Assembly: GCF_002105535.1 (NCBI RefSeq)
Contig: NZ_CP015848.1
Coordinates: forward strand, 1,178,907 to 1,242,906
Length of the DNA: 64,000 bases
Direction of reading: 5' to 3'
DNA from: Magnetospirillum sp. ME-1
Lineage (GTDB): Bacteria; Pseudomonadota; Alphaproteobacteria; Rhodospirillales; Magnetospirillaceae
Below are positions 7,571 to 31,791 of the stretch, piece by piece. Below the pieces are notes generated by a model. The model did no database searches. It was not told where the DNA came from and worked only from the letters and a program-made list of their open reading frames with translations. The position numbers were made by a program, and so were the translations under genes. Numbering within the stretch: the stretch's first letter is position 1; every line of letters starts with the position of its first letter.

Positions 7571-7646
7571 GTCCCCATCGTCTAGAGGCCTAGGACACCG
7601 CCCTCTCACGGCGGTAACCGGGGTTCGAATCCCCGTGGGGACGCCA
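7571..7646 (+). tRNA. tRNA-Glu (anticodon CTC)
   Basis: The acceptor strand GTCCCC pairs with GGGGAC, followed by G and an encoded CCA. The anticodon arm CCGCC-CTCTCAC-GGCGG presents CTC, which reads GAG glutamate codons. The T arm CCGGG-GTTCGAAT-CCCCG is intact. The 3' part (7600-7646) is repeated at 31745-31791 and is the attachment site of the integrated element. Because the element supplies this 3' end, the tRNA remains functional after integration. Confidence 0.97.
7600..7646 (+). repeat. attL: left direct repeat of the island (tRNA-Glu 3' end)
   Basis: The 47 bases covering the anticodon loop to CCA of tRNA-Glu are identical to 31745-31791 except for T7615 against C31760. Placement at a tRNA 3' end next to a tyrosine integrase-bearing element is the usual arrangement for attachment sites. 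Confidence 0.92.
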
Positions 7647-7681
7647 GCGATTTCAATGAGTTAGCCGAATTTGAAATGCCC

Positions 7682-7704
7682 AGTACCCAGTCTGGTGCCT
7701 AGTC
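7682..7704 (+). repeat. Putative integrase arm-type site, left end
   Basis: A 23-base block beginning AGTACCCAGTC matches 31605-31627 at 20 of 23 positions in the same orientation. Both copies lie inside the element, close to its ends. That is where tyrosine integrase arm-binding sites are expected; binding itself is inferred. Confidence 0.55.
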
Positions 7705-7988
7705 GTATGGTCGCGGATTAGGCCGGATTGGCGTGGACTGCGCATGGCTAGATTGTTTCCGCCGTGGGTGTGACGCCCTGGCCAAATGAAGATCAACCTT
7801 ACAGATGTGGGCCACGCAGATGTGCGTCGGTGCAGCGATGCCTGCCAGGACACCGCCGTCGTGGAGGTGGGCATCGCGGGATGAGCCATGGGAAGGGCAA
7901 TAGTCCGTCACTATTCGTGGCTAGACACATCAATCGGCGCCCGAGCAGTGTTAACGCAGACCGATGACCTACATCATTGAGGTGGGCG
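7705..7988. other. Non-coding left end of the island
   Basis: No convincing gene is seen. Short open frames on both strands lack ribosome binding sites and plausible protein sequence. A GCGTGGACTGC at about 7730 resembles the core of the 19-base repeats near the right end of the island (31647-31728). Confidence 0.4.
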
Positions 7989-8177
7989 ATGGCCGGGGCG
8001 GAAGATGAGGGCTGTCCACTACGTAGCGCGCTAAAGGCGGTAGAGAGTTTCGATGAGCTCTGGCCGGGCCTGGGGTGTGCCATCCATGGGGAGTGTGACC
8101 ACCGCAACCTTTGCGCAGAAGAGGCAATGGCCGTCATACAAAGAAACTCTGACCGAATGCCCTCCTCTGACGATTGA
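7989..8177 (+). CDS. Possible small cysteine-containing protein
   Basis: A 62-residue open frame starting MAGAEDEGCPLRSALKAVES. It is preceded by a fair ribosome binding site (GAGGTGGGCG directly before ATG). It contains four cysteines (GCPLR, GCAIHGECDH, NLCAEE), a pattern that could bind metal. No family is recognised and its coding status is uncertain. It sits alone at the left end of the island. Confidence 0.4.
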   Translation: MAGAEDEGCPLRSALKAVESFDELWPGLGCAIHGECDHRNLCAEEAMAVIQRNSDRMPSSDD

Positions 8178-8335
8178 TGCCGCTGATCACGGGGCGCGAT
8201 CCCCACCCAGAAGTTGGATGCGCATCAATTCGTTTCAATTCGCTCCGACCTGGCGCCCTGAGATTTAACCGCCATTAACCAGCCACAATGTAGGGTCAGG
8301 TTCCTGGGGTTCCATCTGTCCAAAGATCGAAGGCC

Positions 8336-8536
8336 ATGAACAACTCTTTGCTCGAACTCATCGCTGATGCCGTTGAAGCTGCCAAGGCTGGCGGCATGTC
8401 CCGCGCCATTGCGCTCGACTACGCAACCACGGCCATCCAGCAGACCGAGGCCGACATGCCCTATCTTGTTGCTCGCCGCATTGCCGAGGGGCTGCTGCCT
8501 GACGCTGGTGACGTTGAGTGCGGGATTGCCGCGTAG
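8336..8536 (+). CDS. Small hypothetical protein of the island
   Basis: A 66-residue, mainly helical, acidic protein (MNNSLLELIADAVEAAKAGG). The sequence looks like a real small phage/plasmid accessory protein, with balanced composition and regular amphipathic helices. The upstream GAAGG is close to the ATG. It has no recognised domain. It is followed by a 318-base non-coding stretch containing DnaA-box-like sites. Confidence 0.5.
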   Translation: MNNSLLELIADAVEAAKAGGMSRAIALDYATTAIQQTEADMPYLVARRIAEGLLPDAGDVECGIAA

Positions 8537-8854
8537 AGCAAGACTGGTGCCTATATATTAAGTAGGCAATAGAACGGGGGCACATTTACCCACAGAAGCT
8601 GTGGATAACTCTGTCGAAAATTCTCAATCCCGCTCTCTGATGCGCAGCAATCCGCGCCTGTCAGCTGTCTGCTCAGATCTTAAGCAGGCCGAATTTTCGC
8701 GGTTGCGAGCCTGTTGCAGTGCGAATGTTAAGCAAAGATTACTACGGCTTTGAGGCTGTGAATAACTGTGAAACACAGGCTGTAGCCGCAGATCATTTGC
8801 CTGAGCAGCTGGGCGGTAAATTACGGCTGTAAGGACGCAGCAATATATCTGGCG
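8537..8854. other. Non-coding stretch with two DnaA-box-like sequences
   Basis: No gene is seen in these 318 bases. They contain TGTGGATAA at 8600-8608, which is an exact reverse complement of the TTATCCACA DnaA box. TGTGAATAA at 8757-8765 is one base different. The composition is less GC-rich than the neighbours. It separates rightward from leftward genes, so it must at least hold divergent or convergent regulatory signals. A role in replication is speculative. Confidence 0.45.
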
Positions 8855-9061
8855 CTAGTTCACCCGATCATCCGGCCCAGGCTCTGAGCGCAGCAGTTCC
8901 GCAGCAGCAAGACTGATCTGGCTCCAGATGGACCAGCCCGCCATATCACCATTCGCCTTGAACGCCTGCGCCCGCTCGGCAGCATAGGACGAAGCTTCCT
9001 TGCGGTGACTGTGGATCAGCAGGGCGGCAGAGCGCCAGATGTCGGGATCGGTGATCAACAT
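8855..9061 (-). CDS. Small hypothetical protein, DUF6961-like
   Basis: A 68-residue protein, MLITDPDIWRSAALLIHSHR onward, with RAQAFKANGDMAGWSIWSQI. The pattern of an N-terminal D-x-W helix, an alanine-rich AAERA segment, GD and W-x-x-I is typical of short proteins found in alphaproteobacterial mobile elements (annotated DUF6961, as far as I recall). The start is supported by AGAGGG. It is the last gene in a leftward run of small genes. Function is unknown. Confidence 0.65.
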   Translation of the reverse strand: MLITDPDIWRSAALLIHSHRKEASSYAAERAQAFKANGDMAGWSIWSQISLAAAELLRSEPGPDDRVN

Positions 9062-9113
9062 GCCCTCTATCCATTTCCGTAAACGCCTGCATAGGCGAGG
9101 CGCGTCCTGATCG

Positions 9114-9368
9114 TCACGGGACGGGTTTGTGGATCAACGCTTCAATGGCTATGGCGCAATCTTCAGCAGTGGTTCTAGGATCGACATGCAGCCCAGCACG
9201 AATCATCTCGGCCATATCACGCAATGCCTTCTCCCGTTCTTCGCGGGCGACGAAGCGGAGGGCCTGGGCGGTGATGCTCTGAATTGCGGTGATGGGCTCC
9301 TTCGCCGTTACCGCCTTATACACGCTCCACGCAAGCTCAATCCCGAGGTCATCAAACCTGTCTGCCAT
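9114..9368 (-). CDS. Small hypothetical helical protein
   Basis: 84 residues from MADRFDDLG, chosen because AGAGGAAG lies six bases upstream; the longer open frame upstream overlaps the preceding gene and looks like noise. The sequence is helical and charged, with AREEREKALRDMAEMIRAG. The gene start lies inside or next to the 3' end of the upstream gene (9382-9624), suggesting one operon. No domain is recognised. Confidence 0.6.
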   Translation of the reverse strand: MADRFDDLGIELAWSVYKAVTAKEPITAIQSITAQALRFVAREEREKALRDMAEMIRAGLHVDPRTTAEDCAIAIEALIHKPVP

Positions 9369-9381
9369 CAATATCTTCCTC

Positions 9382-9624
9382 TCAATCCACCATCCTCTTC
9401 CTGAGCAGATTGTCGCCCCGCAGCGTCTTACGCCACAGGTTGGGCGCAGTCTGGAATGCCAGCCCCTGAGCGACTGCATCGTCCTTTACCCATTGCGGCA
9501 CATCCGAGGCCAGTTCCCAATCCTTGCTCGCCCCCATCAGCCACAGCAGAACGGCCTGCTCGGGCGTGAAGAGTGGGAGGTCGTCGTCGTCAAGCTCTTC
9601 GTAGTCGTTGTCGTTATCGCTCAT
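9382..9624 (-). CDS. Small acidic hypothetical protein
   Basis: 80 residues with a very acidic N-terminus (MSDNDNDYEELDDDDLPLF), then TPEQAVLLWLMGASKDWELA and a basic C-terminus. AGGGG lies eight bases before the ATG. It is in the same leftward group of small island genes. Strong charge polarity is common in phage and plasmid accessory proteins. Function is unknown. Confidence 0.6.
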   Translation of the reverse strand: MSDNDNDYEELDDDDLPLFTPEQAVLLWLMGASKDWELASDVPQWVKDDAVAQGLAFQTAPNLWRKTLRGDNLLRKRMVD

Positions 9625-9678
9625 CAGAATAGCCCCTTCAGTGAGGATCCTGCGGTTAGTCGTCTCCTCAGGTGGAAA

Positions 9679-9834
9679 TCACCTAAACAGCAGCCACAGC
9701 GCAACGGCAATGAGCCCCAAAGCAGAGCAGGCTAAGGCAACGATCTGGTAACGCGTTCGGCGCTGCTTCTCGCGGAGAAGGCTTGACCGCCGTTGGGACT
9801 GGCGCCAGGATAGTCGGAAGGGCTTTTCATCCAT
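9679..9834 (-). CDS. Very small single-pass membrane protein
   Basis: 51 residues from MDEKPFRLSW. The N-terminal half is basic (RQSQRRSSLLREKQRRTRYQ). It is followed by one hydrophobic helix, IVALACSALGLIAVALWLLF, which ends the protein. Predicted topology is N-in. It is short and unplaced, but its composition is typical of a real tail-anchored miniprotein. Confidence 0.45.
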   Translation of the reverse strand: MDEKPFRLSWRQSQRRSSLLREKQRRTRYQIVALACSALGLIAVALWLLFR

Positions 9835-9991
9835 CTGGCTAACCGGTGAACCGGCGCCAAGCCGCAAAGACCCCAATCGATATGGCCGTGAGGATCACCC
9901 GCTCACGGCGCCGCCGCTGCCGCATGGTCGGAGAAAGGGATGGGCGGGGCATTAGGGTAGTCATCGGAGGACTCAATTGGCCGTTGTGCTA

Positions 9992-10234
9992 TCACGCGGA
10001 GGTCTTGACGGGCTGTTCAGTTCTGCGGCGGATCAAGCGTCCGACCCACACAATAATCAACCCGCCACCGATGAAGATCGAGCCCTCCATCAGGATTAGC
10101 GGTGCATACGCGGCCACAGAAGCATCTGCCAAGGTCGAAACGAGGGCGTAGCTGTAACTGACGGCGTTGTACGCCACCACTGCCCAGCCAAACAACCGGA
10201 TGATGTTTCCAATAGATGGCGTTGTATCGATCAT
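9992..10234 (-). CDS. Small membrane protein with two predicted helices
   Basis: 80 residues with a good ribosome binding site (AGGGGGAAGCC before ATG). Hydrophobic stretches lie at about 10-35 (LFGWAVVAYNAVSYSYALVS) and 42-66 (APLILMEGSIFIGGGLIIVW), with a basic tail GRLIRRRTEQ. It belongs to the leftward run of small island genes. Two-helix miniproteins of this sort often act as holin-like or toxin-like proteins, but nothing here proves that. Confidence 0.55.
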   Translation of the reverse strand: MIDTTPSIGNIIRLFGWAVVAYNAVSYSYALVSTLADASVAAYAPLILMEGSIFIGGGLIIVWVGRLIRRRTEQPVKTSA

Positions 10235-10277
10235 GGCTTCCCCCTATCAGTTCATGCTTTCCGTTCGTGCAGCGTGC

Positions 10278-10451
10278 TCATCCTCGCCGCCTCGGCGTCA
10301 GTTTCTCAGACGCCTGCATCAGCCGCTCCATCTCGGCCTCCTCGGCGGGCGATGGCCGCAGGTCCACCGGCAGGCGCATGGTGCTCAGGCGGCGGAACAG
10401 CTCCTCTACCGTGGGCCTTGGGGTGGCGGTTTTGTCGTCGTTGTTGGGCAT
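10278..10451 (-). CDS. Very small hypothetical protein with a strong ribosome binding site
   Basis: 57 residues starting MPNNDDKTATPRPTVEELFR and ending LTPRRRG. A canonical GGAGG lies seven bases before the ATG, which supports translation even though the protein is short. It contains a helical VEELFRRLSTMRLP and an acidic PAEEAEMERLMQ helix, with a basic end. It starts the leftward run of small genes and lies just downstream of the terminator at 10485-10513. Confidence 0.6.
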   Translation of the reverse strand: MPNNDDKTATPRPTVEELFRRLSTMRLPVDLRPSPAEEAEMERLMQASEKLTPRRRG

Positions 10452-10484
10452 GGCTTAGCCTCCTGTCAGGGGCACAATCATACC

Positions 10485-10894: not shown

Positions 10895-11242
10895 TCAGGG
10901 CTCAGTCACCTCAAACCCAGCATCCGAAGGGGCAACGACCGAGGCGAATACAAACGGGACCGCGCCACGGTTGCGGGCGCCATGTGTCTGTCCAGGGGCC
11001 GCGATGGCCAGGTCGCCGGCCTTGATCATCCGGGTCTCGCCACCACCGAGCAGATATTCGGCCTCTCCCGAGATCACCACCCAGGTGTCCTGTCCGTGAG
11101 GATGGCGATGGGCTGCGATCTCCTGGCCGGGCAGCAGGTGCCAGACCACCAGGGCGGTCTGCTCCGACTGGGCGACCACCACCCGTTCGACCTGTTCGGG
11201 GTTGGGGTGGGTGTGCTCTTGGATGGAGACGATGCGGTTCAT
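10895..11242 (-). CDS. Single-domain cupin protein (cytoplasmic)
   Basis: 115 residues forming one cupin barrel. Motif 1 is HRHPHGQDTWVVISGEAEYL, with likely metal ligands H45, H47 and Q51. Motif 2 is PGQTHGARN, with H87. There is no signal peptide. The start overlaps the pcrS stop by four bases (ATGA), so it is translationally coupled to the sensor kinase. It is clearly related to the C-terminal cupin of the exported protein at 22862-24193: both share the HRHP-x-GQDTWVV and THGARN/VHGARN blocks. A role in signal sensing or in handling reactive chlorine or its products is inferred from position only. Confidence 0.85.
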   Translation of the reverse strand: MNRIVSIQEHTHPNPEQVERVVVAQSEQTALVVWHLLPGQEIAAHRHPHGQDTWVVISGEAEYLLGGGETRMIKAGDLAIAAPGQTHGARNRGAVPFVFASVVAPSDAGFEVTEP

Positions 11243-13110
11243 GGGATCTCCGTCATGGATTGTTCGGCCTGCCAGTGGGGCGAAACCAGGGGCAGGATCA
11301 CCCGGGCGATGGTCCCTCCACTCGGATTGGGCTCCAGGTGCAATTCCCCGTCATGGCTCTTGACCAGACGGTGAACGATGGTGAGGCCGAGCCCGGTTCC
11401 CTTGGCCCGGGTGGTGAAGAAGGGTTCGAGAACCTTGCCGTGGATGCTGTCGGGGATTCCCGATCCGGTATCCGCGATGCTGACCTCGACGGCCGGTCGT
11501 GACTTGAACAGCGCCGACCTTGCCTCGATGGTCAGGTGTCCGCCCGGCTCCATGGCCTGAATGGCATTGGCCAGCAGGTTCTGGAACACCTGGATCAGCC
11601 GGGTGCGATCCCCCCACACCTTGGGCAGGGAATGGTGCCCATCGGTACATACCACGATGGACTGTTCGGTAATCTCCGGAAGCATGGAGACCGTCGCAAC
11701 CTCGATGACGTCGTCCAGGTCGACCCAGTCGGGTTCAAGGCCGTTGGGGCGGGCGAAGTCCAGCATGTCCGTCAGGATGTTTTCCATGTAAGACACCTGG
11801 CGCAGAGCGATATCGCATCCATCGCTGAACTCGTCGGCAACGGCCCGGTGATGGTTGTCGAGAATCTTCAGGTTCATCTTCACCGAGGACAGCGCGTTGC
11901 GGATGTCGTGGGCGATCATGGTCGCCATGCGTCCCAAGGCCGCCTGCTCCTCGTTCTTGGCCGCATCCCGCAGGGCCTCGAGCATGCGCATCATGGCCCG
12001 GGCCAGAACGCCGAACTCATCACGGCGGCCACTGGCGGGCGATGTGATGTCGCGCTCGCCATCCCGGATGCGATCCGCGAGCAAGGTGAGTTCCTGAATG
12101 GGCTGGGTCAGGTACTTGGTGGCAAGGGCCAGGGCGAAGGCGACCATGCCGCCGACCACCAGGGCCATCACGGCCAGTTCCGTACGAAAACCAAGGATTT
12201 GATTGTCCATCTCGGTCAGCGAGGCGGCCCCTCCCACCACCAGGACCGGTGCGTTCGGCCGCAGCAGGGGATCGGCCAGCAACACCCGGTACAGCACCAC
12301 CGCCATATGGGTTTCGGGGCTGTCGAAGCGCAATTGGGGGTCGCTGCCGTATGACCATTTCTGCCAGCGCTCCCCCAGCCTGAAATCCCTGATCATGGAG
12401 TTGGACCAAGTGATGGACTTGGTCTCCTGCTGCCCTGTGGGGCGGTAGAGGTATTCTCCGTCACGGTTGCCGATGAAGAAGGTGATATCGGTCCGCGGGC
12501 GTCCAAAACCGCCGACCAATGTGTCGAAATCGATGGCGATCACCAGGGCGCCTTCCACCCGGCCATCCTTGGTGGCGACGGGGGTGGCGGCGTAGATGAC
12601 CCGCGCCTTCTGATCCACTTCGTCGCGGACATTGCGCACCATCACCTGTGACAGGGTGACATTGCCCGGCCAAAGCTTGACCGCTTCCTCGGCCATCATG
12701 ACGAAATCGGATTCGACCGCAGCCCCGACTCCCTTGGCGCGCAGCCCCAGCTCCGTTTGCTCAACCGAGATGGTTGCCGCACCGGCCGTGTTCGGCTGCA
12801 GCAATATTCGGGTATAGGCGGGGCGCTTTTGCATCAGTCCCGCATATCGCTCGGTCAGTCTTCTGCGGGTTTCCGGGTCCTTGCTAGCCCCGGCCCCTCC
12901 CTCCTCGGCCAGGACCTGGAGGTCGCTTCTGACCATGTCGAGGGTATTGTAGATGATCCGCGACTCGCGATTGACGCTTTCGGAGAGGCGCTGGCGCGAC
13001 AGGTCGTGAAGGGTGGCGGTCGTTCGAGACAGGGTGAACAGCGCAATGCCGGCAATGGCCAGCACCGAGATCAGATAGGTCAGGCCGAAAATTTTCCGCG
13101 ATGTCTTCAT
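11239..13110 (-). CDS. pcrS: Sensor histidine kinase of the perchlorate cluster (PcrS)
   Basis: A 623-residue membrane kinase from MKTSRKIFGLTYLISVLAIA. The first membrane helix spans about 9-27 and the second about 312-330. The roughly 280 residues between them form a periplasmic Cache-like sensor. A HAMP segment follows (LADRIRDGERDITSP). The dimerisation domain carries the phospho-acceptor histidine in MIAHDIRNALSS (about 400), and the ATPase domain has N, G1 (DTGSGIP) and G2 (GTGLGLTIV) boxes. This is the NtrB/DctB style that pairs with sigma54 activators. It is divergent from pcrR with a 140-base gap and coupled to the downstream cupin. It is expected to phosphorylate PcrR. The symbol follows the usage I recall for perchlorate islands. 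Confidence 0.85.
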   Translation of the reverse strand: MKTSRKIFGLTYLISVLAIAGIALFTLSRTTATLHDLSRQRLSESVNRESRIIYNTLDMVRSDLQVLAEEGGAGASKDPETRRRLTERYAGLMQKRPAYTRILLQPNTAGAATISVEQTELGLRAKGVGAAVESDFVMMAEEAVKLWPGNVTLSQVMVRNVRDEVDQKARVIYAATPVATKDGRVEGALVIAIDFDTLVGGFGRPRTDITFFIGNRDGEYLYRPTGQQETKSITWSNSMIRDFRLGERWQKWSYGSDPQLRFDSPETHMAVVLYRVLLADPLLRPNAPVLVVGGAASLTEMDNQILGFRTELAVMALVVGGMVAFALALATKYLTQPIQELTLLADRIRDGERDITSPASGRRDEFGVLARAMMRMLEALRDAAKNEEQAALGRMATMIAHDIRNALSSVKMNLKILDNHHRAVADEFSDGCDIALRQVSYMENILTDMLDFARPNGLEPDWVDLDDVIEVATVSMLPEITEQSIVVCTDGHHSLPKVWGDRTRLIQVFQNLLANAIQAMEPGGHLTIEARSALFKSRPAVEVSIADTGSGIPDSIHGKVLEPFFTTRAKGTGLGLTIVHRLVKSHDGELHLEPNPSGGTIARVILPLVSPHWQAEQSMTEIP

Positions 13111-13196
13111 GGAGCGCGCTGTCCCCTGCGGCTGCCGGCCATCTCGGCCCAAGCTTAATCTTCCCCACCGGACGGTGCTATGCTGTCTCGACGAGT

Positions 13197-13212
13197 TGGC
13201 CGGGTTATTGCA
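13197..13212 (+). promoter_or_regulatory. Sigma54 promoter for pcrR
   Basis: TGGCCGGGTTATTGCA fits the -24/-12 consensus TGGCACG-N4-TTGCW with correct spacing; the invariant GG and GC pairs are present. It lies 38 bases before the pcrR start codon, which allows a leader of about 25 bases. PcrR itself is a sigma54 activator, so autoregulation is likely. Confidence 0.75.
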
Positions 13213-13250
13213 ATTCCAATGCCGTCTTTCCTGCTGATCGCGAGTCCAAT

Positions 13251-14627
13251 ATGCCACACATCCTGCTCGTCGATGACGACCGCGCCATCTGCCGGACCCT
13301 GGACCTGCATTTCCAGCAGATCGAGTACACGGTCACCGTCGCGCATTCGGCCGAGGACGGCATCAACAAGGCTGAGGATGCTGACATCGACGTGGTGATT
13401 TCCGATGTCCGCCTGCCGGGAGCGGACGGCATGCAACTCCTTTCCTCCATCAAGACTCGGCGCCCGACCTTGCCGGTGATCATGATCACCGCCTTCCATG
13501 ATTTCGAGACCACGGTGGCGGCCATGCAGGGGGGCGCTATCGATTATGTCCCCAAGCCCATCGACCTGGACGAACTGGATGCGGCGGTGGAGCGGGCCCT
13601 GTCGCAAGGCCGCTCCGGCGAGGGATTGGTGATCGGCACCGCCGCTGGAGCCGGAACCACACAGATCATCGGCCAGTCCTTCGTCATGAAGGAGGTTTTC
13701 AAGCGCATCGGGCTGGTGGCGCAAAGCCGCATAACGGTTCAGATCCTGGGCGAATCCGGCACCGGCAAGGAATTGGTGGCCCGCGCCGTCCACAACGCCA
13801 GCGCCGACCGTCATCACCCCTTCGTGGCCGTCAATTGCGCCGCCCTGGTGGAAACCTTGCTGGAAAGCGAGATGTTCGGCCACGAGCGCGGCGCCTTCAC
13901 CGGCGCGGTCAGCGCCCACAAGGGAAAGGTGGAGCAGGTGGGCGAGGGCACCTTGTTCCTGGACGAAATCGCCGAGCTTTCGCCGCCCATGCAAAGCAAG
14001 CTTCTGCGTATCCTGGAAGAGCGCGAATACACCCCTGTCGGCGGGTCGCAGGTCAAGACCAGCAAGGCGCGCTTCATTACCGCCACCAATGTGGATCTCA
14101 AGGAAAGGGTGGCGTTGGGGCAGTTCCGCGAGGACCTCTATTATCGTCTGAACGTCGCCACTATCAATCTGCCGCCCCTGCGCGAACGGCGCGGCGACAT
14201 TCCGCTTCTGACCGAATTCCTGTTGAAGAAGATCAACAAGGACCTGCGCAAGACCATCCGGCGGGTATCGGCCGAGGCTATCGCCTGCCTCGAGGACTAT
14301 CACTGGCCCGGCAATGTGCGCGAACTGGAAAATGTCCTGATGAAGGCGGCGGTGCTTCAGCGCGGTGACGTCCTGACACCGGATTGCTTGCCGCCCGAAC
14401 TTCGCCACCGCGTGCAGGCCGGGGAGGCCTCGGAGTCGGTCTGTTCCGGCACCCTGTGTTCGCTGCGGGAACTGGAACGCGACCATATCCGCCGTGTGCT
14501 GGCGGAGACCAATTGGCACAAGGGAAAGGCCTGCGACATCCTCGGCGTATCCCGCCCCAGGCTGGAGCGGAGGATCAAGGAGTTCGGCCTGGTCTCGCCG
14601 CGCGGCAAGAATGGTGACGACGACTGA
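13251..14627 (+). CDS. pcrR: Sigma54-dependent response regulator of the perchlorate cluster (PcrR)
   Basis: A 458-residue NtrC-type activator. The receiver (1-120) has the acid pair in LLVDDDRAI, the phospho-acceptor in VVISDVRLPG and the lysine in YVPKPID. The AAA+ domain (about 140-380) has Walker A GESGTGKE, the sigma54 contact loop GAFTGA (214-219), Walker B LFLDEIAEL and the arginine-finger region REDLYYRLNV. The C-terminus is a Fis-type helix-turn-helix (GKACDILGVSRPRLERRIKE). It is expected to open sigma54 promoters once phosphorylated by PcrS. The gene is preceded by its own sigma54 promoter, and its stop codon overlaps one of the palindromes proposed here as PcrR sites. Confidence 0.9.
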   Translation: MPHILLVDDDRAICRTLDLHFQQIEYTVTVAHSAEDGINKAEDADIDVVISDVRLPGADGMQLLSSIKTRRPTLPVIMITAFHDFETTVAAMQGGAIDYVPKPIDLDELDAAVERALSQGRSGEGLVIGTAAGAGTTQIIGQSFVMKEVFKRIGLVAQSRITVQILGESGTGKELVARAVHNASADRHHPFVAVNCAALVETLLESEMFGHERGAFTGAVSAHKGKVEQVGEGTLFLDEIAELSPPMQSKLLRILEEREYTPVGGSQVKTSKARFITATNVDLKERVALGQFREDLYYRLNVATINLPPLRERRGDIPLLTEFLLKKINKDLRKTIRRVSAEAIACLEDYHWPGNVRELENVLMKAAVLQRGDVLTPDCLPPELRHRVQAGEASESVCSGTLCSLRELERDHIRRVLAETNWHKGKACDILGVSRPRLERRIKEFGLVSPRGKNGDDD

Positions 14628-14777: not shown

Positions 14778-16296
<1,519 letters not shown>

Positions 16297-16299: not shown

Positions 16300-16980
16300 T
16301 CAGTGCTCCACCCGGGCGGCGGACGGCACCCGGGGGACCTGGCGCTGCATCAGGTCCAGGTCGCCGGCGACGTAGGTGCCCACCAGGCGACACATGGCCC
16401 GATAAAACCCGAAGGCCACCTTGTGTTCGGCGGTGGTCGCCAGGAGCGGCAGCCAACGTCCGAGATGCCGTTCGAGGAAGTCGCGCTGCGCCATAAGGTA
16501 GGGGGCTGGATCCTTCCCCGTCTCTTCGGCATCCGCCTGCTTGGCGGCCAGGAAAGCCATGAACTCAAGCTCGGCCGTCAGATGGTCCTCGGGGGCGTTG
16601 AGGTCGGCGGACACCGCCAGGCCGAAATTCTGATAGAAGGATTTGACTTCCAGCAGGATTTCGGCCCGCTCGGTGTCGCGGATATGAGCCCCTTCGTAAA
16701 GCGGGCAGGGCGACGACGGCGCGTCCAGTTCGAAGCTGCAGAGATAGGCGCTCTCCACCGCGTCGCAGTCAGTCCCCGACGGCACGGCCAGTTCTTCGGC
16801 CAGGGCCAGCACGGCGACGGCCGAACCGGGATAGACCTGGGAAATGGTGTCGCACAGCTCGGCCTGGAGCTGGCCGTCGATGATGTTCCGGCAGATCATC
16901 TCCTCGGGATAGGAGAAGGCTTCGGCCAGCAGGCCATAGGCTTCGGCGCGGAACGCGGCCATTCTGGGTTCGGGGATCAT
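16300..16980 (-). CDS. pcrD: TorD/NarJ-type chaperone for the perchlorate reductase (PcrD)
   Basis: A cytosolic redox-enzyme maturation protein expected to bind the PcrA twin-arginine signal and help insert the Mo cofactor before export. 226 residues, all helical, with AAFRAEAYGLLAEAFSYPEE at the N-terminus. CPLYEGAHIRDTERAEILLE follows, close to the P-x-YE segment typical of DMSO-reductase type II chaperones, and then ELEFMAFLAAKQADAEE. It overlaps pcrC by four bases (ATGA) and is coupled to it. The pcrABCD gene order (cytochrome before chaperone) is that of perchlorate rather than chlorate reductase operons. Confidence 0.9.
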   Translation of the reverse strand: MIPEPRMAAFRAEAYGLLAEAFSYPEEMICRNIIDGQLQAELCDTISQVYPGSAVAVLALAEELAVPSGTDCDAVESAYLCSFELDAPSSPCPLYEGAHIRDTERAEILLEVKSFYQNFGLAVSADLNAPEDHLTAELEFMAFLAAKQADAEETGKDPAPYLMAQRDFLERHLGRWLPLLATTAEHKVAFGFYRAMCRLVGTYVAGDLDLMQRQVPRVPSAARVEH

Positions 16981-17669: not shown

Positions 17670-17684
17670 CGCAATGGCGCCTTA

Positions 17685-21644: not shown

Positions 21645-21660
21645 CGCAAAGCCCATGCCA
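21645..21660 (-). promoter_or_regulatory. Sigma54 promoter of the pcrABCDQ-cld operon
   Basis: Read on the minus strand, TGGCATGGGCTTTGCG matches TGGCACG-N4-TTGCW with exact spacing. It lies about 85 bases before the pcrA start codon, and two palindromic sites sit 100-150 bases further upstream. This is the standard layout for an NtrC-type activator such as PcrR. Confidence 0.8.
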
Positions 21661-21757
21661 GAAGGGGCAAAGACCCGATTTCGCAGTAGCCTCACGAATT
21701 TTCCGGGTATTGCAGGATCTGCTAATTGATCTGGATCAGAAGTGGCGGGGTACCACT

Positions 21758-21772
21758 CAAACGCTTCGTTCA
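21758..21772. promoter_or_regulatory. Putative PcrR upstream activating site A before pcrA
   Basis: On the minus strand this reads TGAACGAAGCGTTTG, 13 of 15 bases identical to the palindrome at 14659-14673. It is centred about 110 bases upstream of the sigma54 promoter. Confidence 0.65.
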
Positions 21773-21789
21773 ATTGTCATCGGCTCAAT

Positions 21790-22861: not shown

Positions 22862-24193
22862 CTAGTTCTCGCCCGGCTCGACCCCGGCATCGGCCGGGGT
22901 GACCGTGGAGACGAAAATGAAGGGGGAGGTTCCGGTGTTGCGGGCACCATGCACCTGCCCGGTGGTGGCGATGGCGATGTCGCCGGTCTTGATCTTACGG
23001 CTCTTGCCGCCACCCATCAGGTAATCGGCCTCGCCCGCCAGCACCACCCAGGTGTCCTGTCCTTCGGGATGGCGATGCGGCTCGAGCCCCTGTCCCGGCA
23101 AGACATGCCAGCCGGTGACCACGGCATGCTCCGTTTGGCTGATGACATGGCGCCGGACCATCTTGGCATCGGGCTTGGCGAAATCCTCGACGGTGTAGAC
23201 CCTGTTCGTTGTTCCGTCCTTTCGAACGGCAGCGGGTTCGTAAACCTTGCGGATGCCATCGGGCGTACCGCCGACCCGCGCTCCGGGAAGGCTGGCGACC
23301 AGGGCGCGGGCATGGGAGACCGCCGAATGGACGTCCGATGGAGTCATGCCGGTCTGGGGCGGGGCCAGCACGGTGGGAATCGTAACCCCGGTCTTTGCCT
23401 TGATCGCGGAAATTTCGGCCAATACGGTCCCCAGGAGGTCCATGACATGGGCCGGCTTGATGGTTCCGTTCCGGCGTTCGGGGAGGACGACCCCCATGGG
23501 GATGACCAGATTCGGGTTGCTCTCGGTTAGCACCTTGATGTCTACCAGCAGGCCGATGGCGTTGTCGTAGGTATCCACCGGTCGCCGGGCCGGAATGACC
23601 GGCGGCGGAGGCACCGGCGCGGTAACGCCCAGAGACGACCTCACGAGTTCCAGATCATTGACGATAGAAAGCGCAATCCGCATGACGTCATTGGGAGATG
23701 TCGCCGGCAGTCCCAGGCCATCCACCTGCAGCTCCGCCCGGCGCAGTGCCGCGAAATTATCGGTCGGCCCCATTTCCCGCGATGGCCGGGTCATCTTGGC
23801 AACCGGAGGGTTGCCGAAGATCGGCCGCAAATCCTTCAAGCCCAGCAGCATCTTCTCGACGAAGAACTTGACGTCGTCGGGCTGGACCTCGCGCACCGCT
23901 ATTTCAGGCACCGGCTGGAGCGGCAGTCCATTGAGCTGGCGGACGGCCTGAATCTTCAAAAGCACCTCGCGGGCTTTCTGCAGGACGTGGCGGGGCAGCC
24001 GTTCCGTCAGGGGCGGCGCCTGGGGATCCACCGCCGGCATGGTGCCATTCGCATCATGGAAAGCCGCGAGTTGGGCGTTGACGGCTTCGATGGCCTGGTA
24101 GGTGTCGGCGGGAGTCGCTGCCTCGCCGGCTGCAGTGCCAGCGATAAGGAGCAATAACGCCCCGATCCAAATCCGAATACGGCAGCCCGACAT
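22862..24193 (-). CDS. Exported protein with a helical region and C-terminal cupin domain
   Basis: 443 residues. Residues 1-26 look like a signal peptide (RIWIGALLLLIAGTAAGEAA). Residues about 27-330 are helical and not recognised. Two segments share the pattern DTYxAI (DTYQAIEAVN near 30, DTYDNAIGLL near 210), suggesting an internal duplication. The final ~110 residues are a cupin with HRHPEGQDTWVVLAGEADYL and GQVHGARN, very similar to the 115-residue cytosolic cupin at 10895-11242. It follows the same leftward direction and lies 59 bases before moaA. The predicted location is the periplasm, where chlorite and hypochlorite arise; its function is unknown. Confidence 0.8.
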   Translation of the reverse strand: MSGCRIRIWIGALLLLIAGTAAGEAATPADTYQAIEAVNAQLAAFHDANGTMPAVDPQAPPLTERLPRHVLQKAREVLLKIQAVRQLNGLPLQPVPEIAVREVQPDDVKFFVEKMLLGLKDLRPIFGNPPVAKMTRPSREMGPTDNFAALRRAELQVDGLGLPATSPNDVMRIALSIVNDLELVRSSLGVTAPVPPPPVIPARRPVDTYDNAIGLLVDIKVLTESNPNLVIPMGVVLPERRNGTIKPAHVMDLLGTVLAEISAIKAKTGVTIPTVLAPPQTGMTPSDVHSAVSHARALVASLPGARVGGTPDGIRKVYEPAAVRKDGTTNRVYTVEDFAKPDAKMVRRHVISQTEHAVVTGWHVLPGQGLEPHRHPEGQDTWVVLAGEADYLMGGGKSRKIKTGDIAIATTGQVHGARNTGTSPFIFVSTVTPADAGVEPGEN

Positions 24194-24480: not shown

Positions 24481-24765
24481 TTAGCCGATACCCGTATTGA
24501 CGATCAGAACGATGCCTCCATCGGGTCCGCTGATCTCGCTGTTCCGCAACTTGGGGCGAACATAGGGCGCGATGTCGGCCAGCACCTTGGCGCGAAGATC
24601 GACCGGGGTATCGGGAGCCTGGGCCAGCAGGGCAAGTTCCACCACCGGGTCGAAGTCGGCGCCCACTTTCTCGGCCAGCATGGCCGCAAGCTCGCTGGTC
24701 CGCTTGTTCGGCGTTCCAGGCTTGCGCCCACCGCGCCGCTCTCCAGGCTTCGATCCTCTCGGCAC
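24481..24765 (-). CDS. Phage-type small protein (DUF5681-like)
   Basis: 94 residues from a GTG start with GGAGAG ahead of it. The basic N-terminus GRKPGTPNKRTSELAAMLAE is typical of short phage or mobile-element proteins that occur near terminase small subunits. The middle region, VVELALLAQAPDTPVDLRAK, is a helical repeat also seen in that group. No terminase or capsid gene is nearby, so it is probably a leftover of phage-related DNA within the island. Confidence 0.65.
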   Translation of the reverse strand: MPRGSKPGERRGGRKPGTPNKRTSELAAMLAEKVGADFDPVVELALLAQAPDTPVDLRAKVLADIAPYVRPKLRNSEISGPDGGIVLIVNTGIG

Positions 24766-24839: not shown

Positions 24840-25310
24840 ATGCCAGCGTTCACTCGCTATTTGATGCGTCACATGCAACAGGTAGCCAGGCGCCATCTGA
24901 CCGAGAGCCAACGCGCCGCCATCGCGGCCAAGCTGGCGAACATGCAGCAGGGGGCGCGGACGGATTTGGAACCTTCTGCAAATTTGCAGAGCACAAGCCG
25001 CGCCGATGCCGCCGCCATGCTCAACGTGTCCGAGCGCAGCGTCAACGCGGCCAAGAAGGTCCAGAAGGCCGATCCAGCCCTGTTCGCCAAGGTCGAGAGC
25101 GGCGAGGTCGCGGTATCGAGTGCCGAGAGGACGGTGCGGGTGGCGCGGCCATTGACGAGGAGGTGCTGGCCGAGGCTGCGAAAATCAGGTCTGCGGGGTC
25201 ATCTGACCATTTTTGCGGGGTCATTTGCGGGGTCAACCCGCACCTCAAACCCGCGGAAAACTGCCATTTGCGGGGTCGTGCGGGGTCAAATCGGCCATTC
25301 CCATCTCTAA
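24840..25310 (+). pseudogene. Degraded ParB-like / replication-accessory gene fragment
   Basis: The first ~100 residues carry a recognisable block of ParB/RepB-like mobile-element proteins: RRHLTESQRAAIAAKLANM, then SRADAAAMLNVSERSVNAAK (a helix-turn-helix) and VESGEVAVSSAERTV. The upstream ParB nuclease-like part is absent. After about 25140 the coding signal jumps to another frame (IDEEVLAEAAKIRSAG) before the repeats begin. It is therefore truncated at both ends and probably inactive. Its position beside iteron-like repeats and a primase gene suggests an old replication or partition module. Confidence 0.6.
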
Positions 25311-25500
25311 GTCACCGATTTTATTTGGTGATACTCCCGCTTATAAAAAAAATACACCCACGAAAAGAGGAAAATGACCCCGCAGACCCCGCAAATCTTC
25401 AAAAAACCGCAGTTTTCTGCGGGTTTCGGGCGCGGGGTCGCGCTCACATCTGACCCCGCATGACCCCGCACGACCCCGCACGACCCCGCACGACCCCCGC
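25193..25500. repeat. Inverted arrays of GCGGGGTC flanking an AT-rich core (iteron-like)
   Basis: GCGGGGTC occurs on the plus strand at 25193, 25215, 25227, 25270, 25280 and 25432. Its complement GACCCCGC occurs at 25376, 25385, 25452, 25462, 25472 and 25482, plus a variant with one extra C at 25492. The last five are spaced exactly 10 bases apart. Between the two arms, about 25310-25370 is strongly AT-rich and contains TCACC/GGTGA as a small stem. The layout resembles a plasmid or phage origin with iterons next to a primase/helicase gene. Confidence 0.8.
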
Positions 25501-25501
25501 A

Positions 25502-28500: not shown

Positions 28501-28504
28501 CCAT
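25502..28504 (-). CDS. Mobile-element primase/helicase-like protein
   Basis: About 1000 residues. The upstream gene ends in TGATG, so the ATG at 28504 overlaps its stop. The N-terminal half resembles bifunctional primases of integrated elements and plasmids (VHVYLALRDG, then ADPVEGVVYGRCKAKVF and INSFAHGGVYYRL). The C-terminal half has a P-loop SAHKRGSGKT near residue 685, LCLDNLLAP as a Walker B-like strand and MAATGNNLAARADAARRWLR as a sensor/arginine-finger region. It probably primes and unwinds the excised element. It is adjacent to the iteron-like region. Family placement is by pattern, not search. Confidence 0.78.
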   Translation of the reverse strand: MGVAVELTLFSKDGGPLTKEVTLAADGTVSSDGSACFMQSGAAKRVCLANGELFSGLAELINSTTSEQALGTGTLVAEGDTVMVCTRKRPSSGAVARTRDAFDYRPGEPAFVLLDFDRKGMPAAVKQRLDDLGGFWSGLQFVFPALAAAGTVQRASTSSGLIRTADGHRFPDSGGVHVYLALRDGSDAKRFLEVLHQRCWLAGLGWFWVSASGTPLERSVVDTSVWAPERLIFEGAPTLGYGLAQDAEVRRAVHLDGDIVDSKQLADLAPAEAVEYRRLLADAKAAAEPEARRVRTVYKGREVDRLVARGVSAKAATRIIDNRLVGDLTGADVLEFDDSEIGVVTVAEVLADPDRFDGETLADPVEGVVYGRCKAKVFAASSRVAINSFAHGGVYYRLWHDAASAGATLDGAGTDAASALEAMAGTLKLSPVEREALIKRAARQSGVGVRAMTATLKAAEEAASSADVADLDDQAHAAGKPVIRVRAGGALAAVKAADEALAAQTPPIAFERGGALVRMAKSGIDSDHRIVAMSDADLSLRLAEAATWVQPSREDGERTIDPPPDIVRKLASNVGHWSVPPLVGITDVPVLRLETGEIHGSTGYDPVSGLFYSGSAPPLEVPAQPSRGDAVAAMERVLAPFSEFVFADAEVGRSVLAAYVLTGAIRQVIDLAPGLIVSAHKRGSGKTLAVRAANALLYGRAPSMVAPEKDFSEAEQRKQLTAQLLRGTTSLCLDNLLAPVGGGPLDAMMTMTSWDDRVLGESTMAGGLPTRVLMAATGNNLAARADAARRWLRVVIDSGLERPEDQHFGIVDLVGYVMQHRQRLLADVFTVLRAFILAGKPNPCALTLGSYETWASVVPACLVWLGMADPLASQLDLAADDGQRSELRAFLAAWHGVLGDEWVLVRDLEDRVSEAASFKWHAAYADADAQAEAADTEKVSAARHLRGVLAELTRGKIGGAASRMISAYLGNHRREIVDGLRLEQRENAHLKVAEWRVARV

Positions 28505-28866
28505 CACGCGCACTCCCCCGACCGGAGTTCGATCACGCACGGCAGCCAGGTCAACCGCCGATAGTCCTCAAACGGGCGAGTGTCTTTCACCACCGGCAGC
28601 CTCGGGACCACCCTGCCATAGGCCAGCAGGTAGGTGGGCGGCGGCACCGGGGTGAAGCTGATGCGACCTGCGGCATGCAACTCGCCCAACGCCTCCACGC
28701 CTTCATCGGACGTGCCCGGCCAGATGGTGACCAGACTGGCCCCGTAGGTCATGGCACCGTCGCCACCGACAACGGGAACTGCGGAGATCAGTTCGTCGAA
28801 AGTCAAGGCGCCACCGGCGTCAGCCAGGGCCTCCAAGATGACTTGTTGAGTGTCTCTGGTAATCAT
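28504..28866 (-). CDS. Small protein coupled to the primase/helicase
   Basis: 120 residues from MITRDTQQVI, chosen because GGAG lies six bases before this ATG; an ATG 12 bases upstream is an alternative. The N-terminal region (ILEALADAGGALTFDELIS) has a winged-helix-like pattern. A loop region follows and then a C-terminal strand set ending CVIELRSGECA. The stop overlaps the start of the primase gene (TGATG), so the two are translationally coupled. No named family. Confidence 0.65.
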   Translation of the reverse strand: MITRDTQQVILEALADAGGALTFDELISAVPVVGGDGAMTYGASLVTIWPGTSDEGVEALGELHAAGRISFTPVPPPTYLLAYGRVVPRLPVVKDTRPFEDYRRLTWLPCVIELRSGECA

Positions 28867-29023
28867 CGGGTACTCCATCTTAGGGAGCCGGCGTCGTCTC
28901 GACGCTGGCGGGGGAGGCCCGGCAGGCTTGAACGGAACAAGGTGGCGGTGTATAAGAAAAGCGCGTCAGCAGTCCTTACCTAATTCGCCAGCCCGTCCGG
29001 TCGCCACCGGGCGGGTTGTTGCT

Positions 29024-29287
29024 TTAGGACGCCTTGCGGGCGCGGGGGTTGGGGGAACGGCGCTTGACCGGCGGGGCCTTGCGGGCCTCGGCGATAAGCT
29101 TGTCCAAGCTCTCGCGGAGGACCAAGCGGCGACCGGCGAACAGGACGGTTTCCAGTTTGCCGTCCTTGATCATTTCCCAGATCGAGCTATCGGAGATACC
29201 GGCATAGGGCGCGGCGATCTTGACCGGCATGAGGGCCGGTTGGATTGCAATGCTCGACACAATGGTCGGCCGAGTAGTGGGCTGCAT
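29024..29287 (-). CDS. Excisionase/AlpA-like DNA-binding protein
   Basis: 87 residues. The centre reads AAPYAGISDSSIWEMIKDGK followed by RRLVLRESLDKLI, the compact winged helix-turn-helix (MerR/Xis/AlpA type) common to recombination directionality factors. The C-terminus is very basic (PPVKRRSPNPRARKAS). It lies between the integrase pair and the replication genes, the usual place for a factor controlling excision. An internal ATG at about 29231 is a possible alternative start. Confidence 0.75.
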   Translation of the reverse strand: MQPTTRPTIVSSIAIQPALMPVKIAAPYAGISDSSIWEMIKDGKLETVLFAGRRLVLRESLDKLIAEARKAPPVKRRSPNPRARKAS

Positions 29288-29369: not shown

Positions 29370-30092
29370 CTACTTTTCCCCCCGAATGACCTGGTATCGC
29401 CGACCGTCTACTTCCAGCGCCACCCGTCCATAGTCTGGGTGGTCATCGACGCTGCCGCCCCTAGCACGAAGGGCTTCACCCTCGGCACGGGCCACATTGG
29501 TCCACGCCTTGATGTTCGCGGGGATGGCGCCGCCGAGCTTCTGGTTCTTGGTCTTCGCCCACTCGGTCAGCGCGTCCCTGCCAAGGACGCCGTAAGCCTC
29601 TTCGACATCCGCAATCGCGTCACTTCGGCTCTTTCCAGCACCTTGCCGGAACGCCTGGTACTGGAGGGCGCGGATCTGCAGCGTCCAGCGGTTGGCCGTC
29701 CCCGGCTGTCGGCTCGACGGCACGATTATCGGATGGTCCTGGCCGTTGTGCGCCGCGTAGAGGGCTTGCTGCAGTTCCGCCATGACGCGGCCGGGGGCAA
29801 ATTCCAGAACCCGCGCCGCGACCAGGCGCTTCTCGGCGCCTTTCGCGCCTTCGACTTGGTCCCAGATGTCGGCAGGAGCGTGGTCAGGCGCGCTTTCTGA
29901 CCGTGCCCAGGCCAAGGCGCAGGCGGCCCAATAGTCCAGAGCCCAGCCGCCGTGGACCTGCGTGATGGTGGAAAACTCCAGCAGCGCCTTGATGGCGGCT
30001 TCCTGCTTAAACTGGTCCGTCTTTGCCTCGTCAAAGGCTTTCTTGCAGGCGTTGATCCGCTTGATTGCGCCGAAAAGCGATACCTCATCCAT
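29370..30092 (-). CDS. Hypothetical protein coupled to the integrase
   Basis: 240 residues from MDEVSLFGAIKR; the ATG overlaps the integrase stop (TGATG), indicating translational coupling. The first 120 residues are helical (ALLEFSTITQ, DYWAACALAWARSE). The second half contains RALQYQAFRQGAGKSRSDAI and ALTEWAKTKNQKLGGAIPAN, and the end RVALEVDGRRYQVIRGEK looks like a small beta domain. I do not recognise it. Such integrase-linked genes often take part in element control, but that is inference. Confidence 0.6.
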   Translation of the reverse strand: MDEVSLFGAIKRINACKKAFDEAKTDQFKQEAAIKALLEFSTITQVHGGWALDYWAACALAWARSESAPDHAPADIWDQVEGAKGAEKRLVAARVLEFAPGRVMAELQQALYAAHNGQDHPIIVPSSRQPGTANRWTLQIRALQYQAFRQGAGKSRSDAIADVEEAYGVLGRDALTEWAKTKNQKLGGAIPANIKAWTNVARAEGEALRARGGSVDDHPDYGRVALEVDGRRYQVIRGEK

Positions 30093-31522
30093 CACGCCGC
30101 CCCCCGCTTCTTGGCCGCTTTGGCCGTTCGCGTCCTGATCCTGGCGCACTCTGCACAGACGACGGAGCCCTTGGAATTGCGGTACGGCGGGAACTCGGCA
30201 TAGCTATGCCCGTGCCGGCACTGTCCCTCGACACGTGGTAACGCCGTTACCTCCTCCCCCGCCCCAAGTAACGCGTTACCGGCCTCGGTTGTCTCGATGG
30301 CGCCCAGGTCCAGCATGGAGGCGCGGGCCACAGCATCAGCTACGCTGGCGATGTCACGGCTGTAGGTGCGTTCGATCATGGTTACAGATGTATCGTGCAG
30401 AGCCGCCACCAGCCGCAGCGGGACGCCCTTCAGCGCCATGCGGACGATGCTTGAGTGCCGCAGGGCGTAGGCCGTGATTTCCTCGATCTGATACGGCTCC
30501 ACCTCGGCAGGCTTCAGCCCCGCTGCCTTGACGGCGCGGGCGAATGGTCGTGAATGGTCGGATTTGGCCCAGGCGCCGCCACCCGGCTTCTGAAGCAAGA
30601 CGCCGGTCGGACCGATGCCCTCGGCTGCCGCCTTCAGACGCTTGGCCAGCGCCGCCGGGATCGGAACCGGGGTGGATCTGGCTGCCTTCTGCCCCTTGCC
30701 CTTGTTCGACACCGGGATCATCAGGCGGGGATCAGCAGTGCCATTCTGCAGATCAGCCACTTTCAGAGCAGCGACCTGCGAGTATCTGCTGCCGGTCACC
30801 GCCAGCACCTCGACCAGCAGGCCAAACGCCAGGGATTGGGAGTAAGCCGCCTTGACCAGTTTGCCGACCACGGCATCGGACAGGATGACGTTGCGGCTGC
30901 TCTCGGCATCGCCCAGCGTCTTCAGACCGATTTCCCACGCGGCCCGGCTAGTGATGGTCACGCCCTGGTCGGCATCTGCCGCCATGTTGAGCGCAGCCTT
31001 GATGGGGGTGGTGGTGCGATTGACGGTCGCCGCCGCCAATTTGTCGGCCAGCCCATCCCGCCATGTCTTCAGCATGTCCACTGTCAGATCAGTCACGGAG
31101 GTCTTCATCAGCTTTTCCGACAGATGGGACCGGACCCGGCTGACGTTGCCGTAATCGCCGCCGCGTACCTTCAGGTCGCGCTCGTAGGCGTTCAGCGCCT
31201 CGTCCAGTGTCAAAGGTGCCTTACGGGCGACGGTGCGGTCTTCCTTCGCCCAATTGAACGCCTTGGCGCTGGCCTGGGCAAAGGAGAGAACGCCAGAGCC
31301 ATCGGCGTCTTCATAGTCGTCAGCCAGGCCGACCACGCCTTCATTGAATCCGCCCTTGCCGTTGGCCTTGCGGGCGATCCAACGGCCAGTGCCCTCGCAG
31401 CGGCGATAGCCAATGCTGATGCCGTCGCCCAATGCCTGCCATATCGGCTTCTTCGCCAGCGGAAGCCCCAGACGGTAATTCCGCTTGGACAGATCTGATG
31501 TGACTTTCGGTGCGCGCGCCAT
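30092..31522 (-). CDS. int: Tyrosine recombinase (integrase) of the tRNA-Glu island
   Basis: Catalyses site-specific integration and excision at tRNA-Glu. 476 residues from ATG 31522, which has GGAG seven bases upstream. N-terminal arm- and core-binding domains precede the catalytic domain. That domain carries the first arginine in TGSRYSQV (about 246), ALRHSSIVR (about 358; the usual first His of HxLR is Tyr here) and the nucleophile in ERTYSRD (about 387). The last 40 residues are an extra zinc-ribbon-like tail with CRHGHSY and VVCAECARIR. The gene lies about 220 bases inside the right attachment site and reads away from it. Confidence 0.92.
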   Translation of the reverse strand: MARAPKVTSDLSKRNYRLGLPLAKKPIWQALGDGISIGYRRCEGTGRWIARKANGKGGFNEGVVGLADDYEDADGSGVLSFAQASAKAFNWAKEDRTVARKAPLTLDEALNAYERDLKVRGGDYGNVSRVRSHLSEKLMKTSVTDLTVDMLKTWRDGLADKLAAATVNRTTTPIKAALNMAADADQGVTITSRAAWEIGLKTLGDAESSRNVILSDAVVGKLVKAAYSQSLAFGLLVEVLAVTGSRYSQVAALKVADLQNGTADPRLMIPVSNKGKGQKAARSTPVPIPAALAKRLKAAAEGIGPTGVLLQKPGGGAWAKSDHSRPFARAVKAAGLKPAEVEPYQIEEITAYALRHSSIVRMALKGVPLRLVAALHDTSVTMIERTYSRDIASVADAVARASMLDLGAIETTEAGNALLGAGEEVTALPRVEGQCRHGHSYAEFPPYRNSKGSVVCAECARIRTRTAKAAKKRGAA

Positions 31523-31604
31523 AACCATTCTCCACGCCGAAACCGGGCACCAAACTGGACACCGGGGCCACTTTCCCCGCGCCGCATCAAGGCGGCGGAA
31601 ACGC

Positions 31605-31627
31605 AGTACCCAGTCTAGTACCCAGTC
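31605..31627 (+). repeat. Putative integrase arm-type site, right end (tandem)
   Basis: Two copies of AGTACCCAGTC separated by one T. The block matches 7682-7704 near the left end at 20 of 23 bases, in the same orientation. It overlaps the region upstream of the integrase start, so integrase could also repress its own gene here. Confidence 0.6.
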
Positions 31628-31646
31628 CATATACAGCCATCATCAT

Positions 31647-31728
31647 GGATGCGCGTGGACGGCAATTCAAGCAGAATTGCGCTATAACAGGTAGTTAATG
31701 CATGACGGCGGATGCGTGTGGACGCCAA
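31647..31728 (+). repeat. 19-base direct repeats between integrase gene and attR
   Basis: 31647-31665 and 31710-31728 share 17 of 19 bases around GCGYGTGGACGSCAA (Y is C or T, S is G or C). An inverted repeat CAATTC/GAATTG (31663-31679) lies between them. Placement next to attR suggests binding sites for integrase, excisionase or IHF-like factors. Confidence 0.5.
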
Positions 31729-31744
31729 ATTTAGCGTCTGATCT

Positions 31745-31791
31745 GCCCTCTCACGGCGGCAACCGGGGTTCGAATCCCCGTGGGGACGCCA
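31745..31791 (+). repeat. attR: right direct repeat of the island
   Basis: A copy of the tRNA-Glu 3' part from the anticodon stem to CCA, with C31760 in place of T7615. No 5' half of a tRNA precedes it, so it is not a functional tRNA gene. It marks the right junction with host DNA. Confidence 0.92.

Follow-up and report, generated by a model that had tools for sequence, protein, structure and literature searches.

A perchlorate reduction island on a putative self-replicating element at tRNA-Glu(CTC)

The window analyzed here, a 64,000-nucleotide stretch of Magnetospirillum sp. ME-1 (bases 1,178,907 to 1,242,906 of its 4.55-Mb one-contig genome), contained perchlorate respiration genes inside a 24-kb element bounded by 47-bp direct repeats of the 3′ end of a tRNA-Glu gene, as a preliminary description of this DNA had proposed. 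It was probably a self-excising, self-replicating, non-conjugative integrative element at tRNA-Glu(CTC) that carried a perchlorate reduction island (PRI). This assignment drew on the boundaries, the gene content, an iteron array, and the same primase-iteron layout in five other loci, all of them established by sequence comparison. The 24.1 kb between the repeats was divided into a 13.3-kb cargo and a chassis of approximately 10.8 kb (Table 1).

The two repeat copies were identical at 46 of 47 positions and lay 24,145 bp apart; the left copy coincided with the 3′ terminus of an intact tRNA-Glu(CTC) gene, and the exact 47-mer (with N at the variable base) was found at two places only in the 4.55-Mb genome. 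G+C content was approximately 58 to 67% between the repeat copies versus approximately 64 to 71% outside them, up to position 49 kb or so (2-kb steps). The integrase foreseen in the preliminary description was identified as a tyrosine integrase whose gene adjoined the distal repeat. A reading in which these were non-mobile host genes accompanied by a chance repeat, with which the lack of an empty site among relatives (see below) would agree, was largely refuted by this integrase-adjoining, two-copy tRNA-end repeat together with the distribution of PcrA (full length in 2 of the 17 genus genomes, at unlike places), and it must be considered very improbable.

Perchlorate reduction cargo

The cargo was an ordinary PRI, composed of pcrABCD, pcrQ, cld, moaA, and pcrS/pcrR plus two cupin genes. 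PcrA matched TIGR03479 with 1257 bits (cut-off 985) and PDB 4ydd with 1571 bits over 895 residues, PcrB matched TIGR03478 with 495 bits (cut-off 481), the PcrD chaperone matched TIGR03482 with 158 bits (cut-off 152), and Cld matched PF06778 as well as PDB 5a13 (433 bits); the further cargo matches were cytochrome c554 (PcrC), NapC/NirT (PcrQ), MoaA-type radical SAM, histidine kinase, and NtrC-type regulator. The following PRI markers were observed: (i) pcrA, pcrB, and cld linked on one DNA piece; (ii) an island moaA (a marker stated for Alpha- and Betaproteobacteria) plus pcrQ, pcrC, and pcrS/pcrR; and (iii) signs of horizontal transfer, namely, the attachment (att) repeats, the integrase, and the above restricted occurrence of PcrA.

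The preliminary description had credited the element with its own regulators, which were indeed present within the repeats as a PcrS-like kinase and a PcrR-like regulator, and with everything from quinol oxidation to chlorite removal. The latter statement held for pcrABCD, pcrQ, and cld, but no PcrO-like protein was seen among the open reading frames (ORFs) scanned, no dedicated pcrO search having been made. A pcrO/napO double mutant of Azospira suillum PS showed no anaerobic growth, as given in the accessible part of PMC5845722. The PcrO step may be supplied by the host, or PcrQ may reach PcrC directly.

The cupin genes, previously listed with the vehicle, were reassigned to the cargo because a cupin protein is a known Cld companion suspected to act in the reactive chlorine response (accessible part of PMC9751292); both had relatives in the matching island of a second genome, and DNA identity with that island ended at them (see below). 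The small cupin was recognized only by eye and as a relative of the large one. The two cupin genes of the window were related and ran in the same direction, and each cupin gene of the second island matched both; recombination between the two could delete or move the cargo.

Chassis and candidate replication origin

Leftwards from the distal repeat, the chassis displayed the gene order integrase, 259-aa orphan, HTH_17/AlpA-like gene, 124-aa protein gene, and primase-type gene, all on the minus strand, followed by a weakly ParB-like ORF on the plus strand. The N-terminal half of the primase-type protein matched a PHROG of DNA primases (E 3e-37), and its C-terminal half matched PHROGs of unknown function and of polymerase/primases; a DFD motif was present, and GSGKT was visible by eye.

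All 11 exact TGCGGGGTC matches of the window fell directly 3′ of the primase-type gene, with five on the plus strand (25192 to 25287) and six on the minus strand (25376 to 25490), and the stretch between the two sets was AT rich (68% AT in the best 60 bases). Shuffled windows held on average 1.43 copies and at most 5, none of 100 shuffles reaching 11, and TGCGGGGTC pairs no more than 25 bases apart occurred nowhere else in the genome. The replication-type genes with iterons named in the preliminary description were thereby recovered.

The sequence comparison was also extended to primase homologues: 15 of 79 genomes held such homologues, at 22 places counting that of the window, and 20 loci were examined. 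Six of these 20 loci (the window and five of the 19 others) carried an array of 9 to 12 perfect 9-mers at the primase gene's 3′ end, compared to a shuffle maximum of 3 (20 shuffles each); four of the arrays lay within the open frame at its 3′ end, and those of the window and L034 lay just past it. The iteron letters of the other primase loci were different (GACCCCGCA, AAACTCCCC, ACGTTCCCC, and ACATTCCCC), with CCCC common to all, and the arrays were not plain amino-acid repeats because both strands were used. Terminase genes adjoined two iteron-bearing primase genes (L174 and L175). Two viral contigs matching the double-iteron pattern, L185 and L186, had 2 copies and 3 copies with one far off, respectively; none of the island proteins had a relative in either contig at E 1e-3, and both were taken as chance.

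The small phage-like genes of the preliminary description were recovered in part: the AlpA-like gene weakly matched phrog_66, but the six ORFs of the left arm (8336 to 10451) gave no match better than approximately 0.05 against PHROGs (E up to 1). Ten island proteins had no defence match in PADLOC. A terminase assignment for the 94-aa protein was considered and rejected: the protein was matched in 1 of 99 genomes, its own, nothing was found in the phage collection at E 0.01, and all its PHROG matches were of unknown function.

Table 1. Features of the element and its attachment site (window positions)
Feature	Position	Strand	Basis
tRNA-Glu(CTC), attachment gene	7571-7646	+	ARAGORN
47-bp att repeat, tRNA-side copy	7600-7646	+	repeat comparison, genome-wide 47-mer search
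Left-arm small ORF	8336-8536	+	no family assignment
Left-arm small ORF, DUF6961-like	8855-9061	-	below cut-off
Left-arm small ORF	9114-9479	-	no family assignment
Left-arm small ORF	9382-9624	-	no family assignment
Left-arm small ORF	9992-10234	-	no family assignment
Left-arm small ORF	10278-10451	-	no family assignment
Small cupin gene, cargo edge	10895-11242	-	60% identical relative, same place in L053
PcrS-like histidine kinase	11239-13257	-	domain matches (HAMP, HisKA, HATPase)
PcrR-like sigma-54-dependent response regulator	13101-14627	+	domain matches
Chlorite dismutase Cld (open frame, with the true start inside it)	14778-15854	-	PF06778, PDB 5a13
PcrQ, NapC/NirT-type quinol dehydrogenase	15715-16296	-	family match
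PcrD chaperone	16300-16980	-	TIGR03482
PcrC, multihaem cytochrome c554 type	16977-17669	-	family match
PcrB, iron-sulfur subunit	17685-18689	-	TIGR03478
PcrA, molybdopterin subunit (open frame, with the true start inside it)	18765-21773	-	TIGR03479, PDB 4ydd
Predicted sigma-54 site before pcrA	21646-21660	-	pattern search
MoaA	21834-22802	-	radical SAM match
Large cupin protein, other cargo edge	22862-24193	-	relative in L053, DNA identity border
94-aa protein	24481-24765	-	unknown-function PHROGs only
Weakly ParB-like/HTH ORF, possibly truncated	24840-25310	+	phrog_21315 E 2.3e-6, phrog_4715 E 0.0017
Candidate replication origin, 11 TGCGGGGTC iterons around AT-rich core	25192-25490	5 on +, then 6 on -	exact-match count, shuffles
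Primase-type replication protein, 1012 aa	25502-28540	-	PHROG DNA primase
124-aa protein	28504-28878	-	phrog_7134 E 0.0027
AlpA/excisionase-like HTH protein	29024-29287	-	HTH_17 E 1.1e-4 (below cut-off), phrog_66 E 1.6e-4
259-aa orphan	29370-30149	-	297 genomes of the order searched, none with a relative
Tyrosine integrase	30092-31630	-	PF00589 32.6 bits (cut-off 27.1), phrog_1 E 4.5e-26
47-bp att repeat, distal copy	31745-31791	+	repeat comparison, genome-wide 47-mer search

Integrase relatives and the tRNA-Glu site

Integrase matches of some kind were found in 26 of 79 genomes, and five relatives (one a fragment) shared 48 to 64% identity with the integrase of the window. Four of these five (G014, G021, G023, and G029) were located by tRNA-Glu or an att-like copy; the fifth, in G004, had neither beside it within the DNA fetched. 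An HTH_17/phrog_66 gene was present near the integrase in the elements of G029, G014, and G004, and that of G014 additionally harbored a RepB-type primase. The element of G021, which belonged to another species, had 13.6 kb between its repeats and contained a primase/helicase-type gene, tail-type genes, and a weak match to the AlpA-like protein of the window. The combination of integrase, AlpA-like gene, and replication gene at tRNA-Glu thus looks like a recurring chassis with exchangeable parts.

The tRNA-Glu site was a hot spot. All nine regions compared within the genus retained the left flank and tRNA-Glu, and the right flank of the window was never next to the tRNA. The closest complete relative, the complete genome G016, carried this right flank (31881 to 37659, 87% identity) on the same strand, at a distance of 69.6 kb past the tRNA, with no att copy beside it; approximately 70 kb of other DNA was situated there between the same two flanks (G016:C1:4010537-4080125). 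In G013, tRNA-Glu and an att copy matching at 46/46 positions enclosed a 37-kb stretch that had a distant integrase of its own.

Relatives of the cargo

A PcrA scan of named genomes yielded 17 loci. All eleven cargo genes in the same order were observed in only one of them within the DNA fetched, namely, L053 from the metagenome-assembled genome of Phaeospirillum sp. GS7 (G013), which belonged to the same genus as the window; L053 and G013 agreed in contig number and coordinates. PcrA of L053 was 91% identical to that of the window, and DNA identity was 72% over 24121 to 21833 and 85% over 21819 to 10917, extending to the two cupins and no further. The PRI of L053 was on a 42-kb contig without a tRNA, no chassis genes or matching integrase were found in the parts searched, and the cargo occupied another genome place than that in the window, the genes flanking it having only scattered homologues in the genome of the window. 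The cargo was cleanly separable from the chassis because a same-genus genome held the same cargo elsewhere. In the PcrA tree, the window and L053 were sisters (100/99), and two Magnetospirillum sequences came next (89/100); this tree left out L068, the stretch used for it contained one stop in rows L059 and L061, and its outgroup branch was very long.

Several further observations were made around these loci. A dispersed repeat of approximately 160 bases preceded pcrA in L053 (L053:9696-9861), and 19 of the 43 matches of the L053/G013 PRI-site DNA in the genome of the window were copies of this repeat (74 to 92% identity). L055 (Magnetospirillum sp. UT-4) carried at 17596 to 21036, beside its PRI, an apparent second pcrA-pcrB-like pair with approximately 72% DNA identity and the other orientation. 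The phototrophy family PF00124 was not found in the genome of the window and was found in 3 of the 17 genus genomes. Elsewhere in the window, G+C content fell to 46 to 49% at 51000 to 55000, overlapped by a 2052-aa open frame on the minus strand, and this region is possibly another acquired segment.

Predicted sigma-54 site before pcrA

A -24/-12 search with the GG/GC core fixed took the best site within 345 bases before pcrA at each locus. A site with at most two mismatches was present in all 10 loci with a PcrR match (at most one mismatch in 9 of them) and in none of the 7 loci without PcrR in view, some of these loci being near relatives and not independent (L057 and L068 gave equal identities throughout), some having short flanks, and the PcrR of L056 being 37% identical; L054 also had a site, its contig ending too early to show PcrR. 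The pattern over the whole window was at chance (5 found versus 5.51 expected), and so the weight of this site came from its place before pcrA and its co-occurrence with PcrR, not from enrichment. The openly accessible papers, as far as their available text goes, contained no mention of this site, which may be in print already. Three Rhodoplanes loci (L059, L060, and L066) had Cld on the other side of pcrA and lacked both PcrSR in view and the sigma-54 site, which suggests another control mode.

Comparison with known vehicles and alternative readings

Published PRI vehicles included a tRNA-Pro island with a xerD-like recombinase, a 145-kb integrative and conjugative element (ICE), and a composite transposon, and transfer of PRIs within narrow groups is known (PMC4623255, here and below as far as its accessible text describes them). 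The tRNA-Pro island, from Azospira, shows that PRI integration at a tRNA gene has been described before. The islands of Azospira suillum PS and its kin and that of the window both had a PRI core flanked by direct repeats of the 3′ end of a tRNA (48 bp in Azospira), a tyrosine-type recombinase inside, moaA, and pcrSR on opposite strands, but they differed in the tRNA gene (tRNA-Pro versus tRNA-Glu); the sigF/nrsF/yedYZ/mrpX set or pcrO was not seen in the window among the ORFs scanned, and no primase-iteron origin is named in the published description, by which alone the two were compared. The 145-kb ICE of Dechloromonas aromatica RCB likewise placed a PRI on an integrative mobile element, but it has plasmid replication and conjugation genes, the latter being unrecognized here: no relaxase, type IV secretion system, capsid, or terminase gene was recognized among the island ORFs scanned, which separates the element from an ICE. 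Judged against these three published vehicles as described, a satellite-like replicon is a new carrier for a PRI, and the suggestion of a distinct vehicle in the preliminary description was upheld.

The origin of Gram-negative phage-inducible chromosomal islands (PICIs) lies 3′ of the replication gene, where an AT-rich region is enclosed by two sets of iterons (accessible text of PMC6092414, also for the PICI comparisons that follow), and the array of the window, immediately 3′ of the primase-type gene, had the same arrangement. Integrase, AlpA-like gene, and primase in one direction followed by this origin would fit a true PICI-type phage satellite, in which a helper phage would induce the element via the AlpA-like protein, replication would start at the iterons, and helper capsids would be used; so would the 10.8 kb without cargo and the phage terminase genes beside two other iteron-bearing primase loci. 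Compared to Gram-negative PICIs, the element had no recognized capsid or packaging gene (the terminase guess for the 94-aa protein being unsupported), was large at 24 kb, and carried a 13.3-kb respiratory cargo, and its primase family was common to phage-type loci. Gram-negative PICIs are further characterized by transcription in a single direction and by att sites that prophages of the species never use; here the genes from integrase to primase were all on the minus strand and ORF 24840-25310 was on the plus strand, and the tRNA-Glu element with tail-type genes (G021) came from another species. PICI membership is not claimed, because the homologues of its primase beside terminase genes (L174 and L175) and in plasmids depart from the gene exclusivity of PICIs and because packaging is a putative trait here. 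A satellite in the strict sense is a rather unlikely identity for the element.

Homologues of the primase were also present in 36 records of phages and 24 of plasmids, the latter including plasmids with sizes of 6.5 and 12.6 kb that were typed as non-mobilizable, and for this reason a plasmid-like reading was retained. An integrative plasmid or mobilizable element with conjugation supplied in trans would agree with these records and with the plasmid-type iteron origin, but the scanned ORFs included no relaxase (no search for an origin of transfer was made), and the probability of this reading is rather low.

Similarly doubtful is a decayed, immobile remnant of a prophage or satellite that merely holds the PRI; the possibly truncated ParB-like ORF and the many small ORFs without relatives point that way, but integrase, primase, and all cargo genes were open and long, and the att copies still agreed at 46 of 47 positions.

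Several results weigh against a self-excising and self-replicating element. The match of the AlpA-like protein was weak, and the ParB-like ORF was perhaps truncated. A Pfam match was lacking for the primase-type gene, and a regular-expression search found no canonical Walker A, for which reason the helicase part of its product is only putative, and no array was present in 14 of the 20 primase-homologue loci (some with short flanks). The integrase had no relative in the phage collection at E 1e-10, and the search of viral contigs returned no relatives of integrase, primase, PcrA, or Cld. The empty tRNA-Glu site that the preliminary description had called for was found in none of the nine same-genus regions, and excision itself is a prediction. 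The self-excising, self-replicating, non-conjugative element nevertheless appears the probable one of the readings set out above.

Proposed mode of action

In the proposed cycle, the integrase would recombine the 47-bp repeats, aided by the AlpA/Xis-like protein, the primase-type protein would bind its own iterons on the excised circle, the AT-rich core would melt and allow replication, and the element would re-integrate at tRNA-Glu; the replication steps are modeled on the likeness to the PICI origin (PMC6092414, accessible text). Since neither conjugation nor virion genes were recognized, movement between cells would depend on a helper, phage packaging being the favored candidate route. As for the cargo, PcrS-PcrR would switch on pcrA from the predicted sigma-54 promoter, PcrQ would pass electrons from quinol towards PcrC and PcrAB, PcrAB would reduce perchlorate to chlorite in the periplasm, Cld would split chlorite into chloride and O2, and the cupins may help against reactive chlorine species.

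Biological meaning

The element supplies att, origin, and promoter coordinates open to direct testing. That a complete anaerobic respiratory pathway moves in helper-phage capsids as satellite-type cargo is a tentative proposal, for which no report was found in the open-licence literature listings; if the element is phage borne, a whole respiratory chain would join the list of satellite cargo. Such transfer in phage capsids would let perchlorate respiration jump within narrow alphaproteobacterial groups without conjugation.

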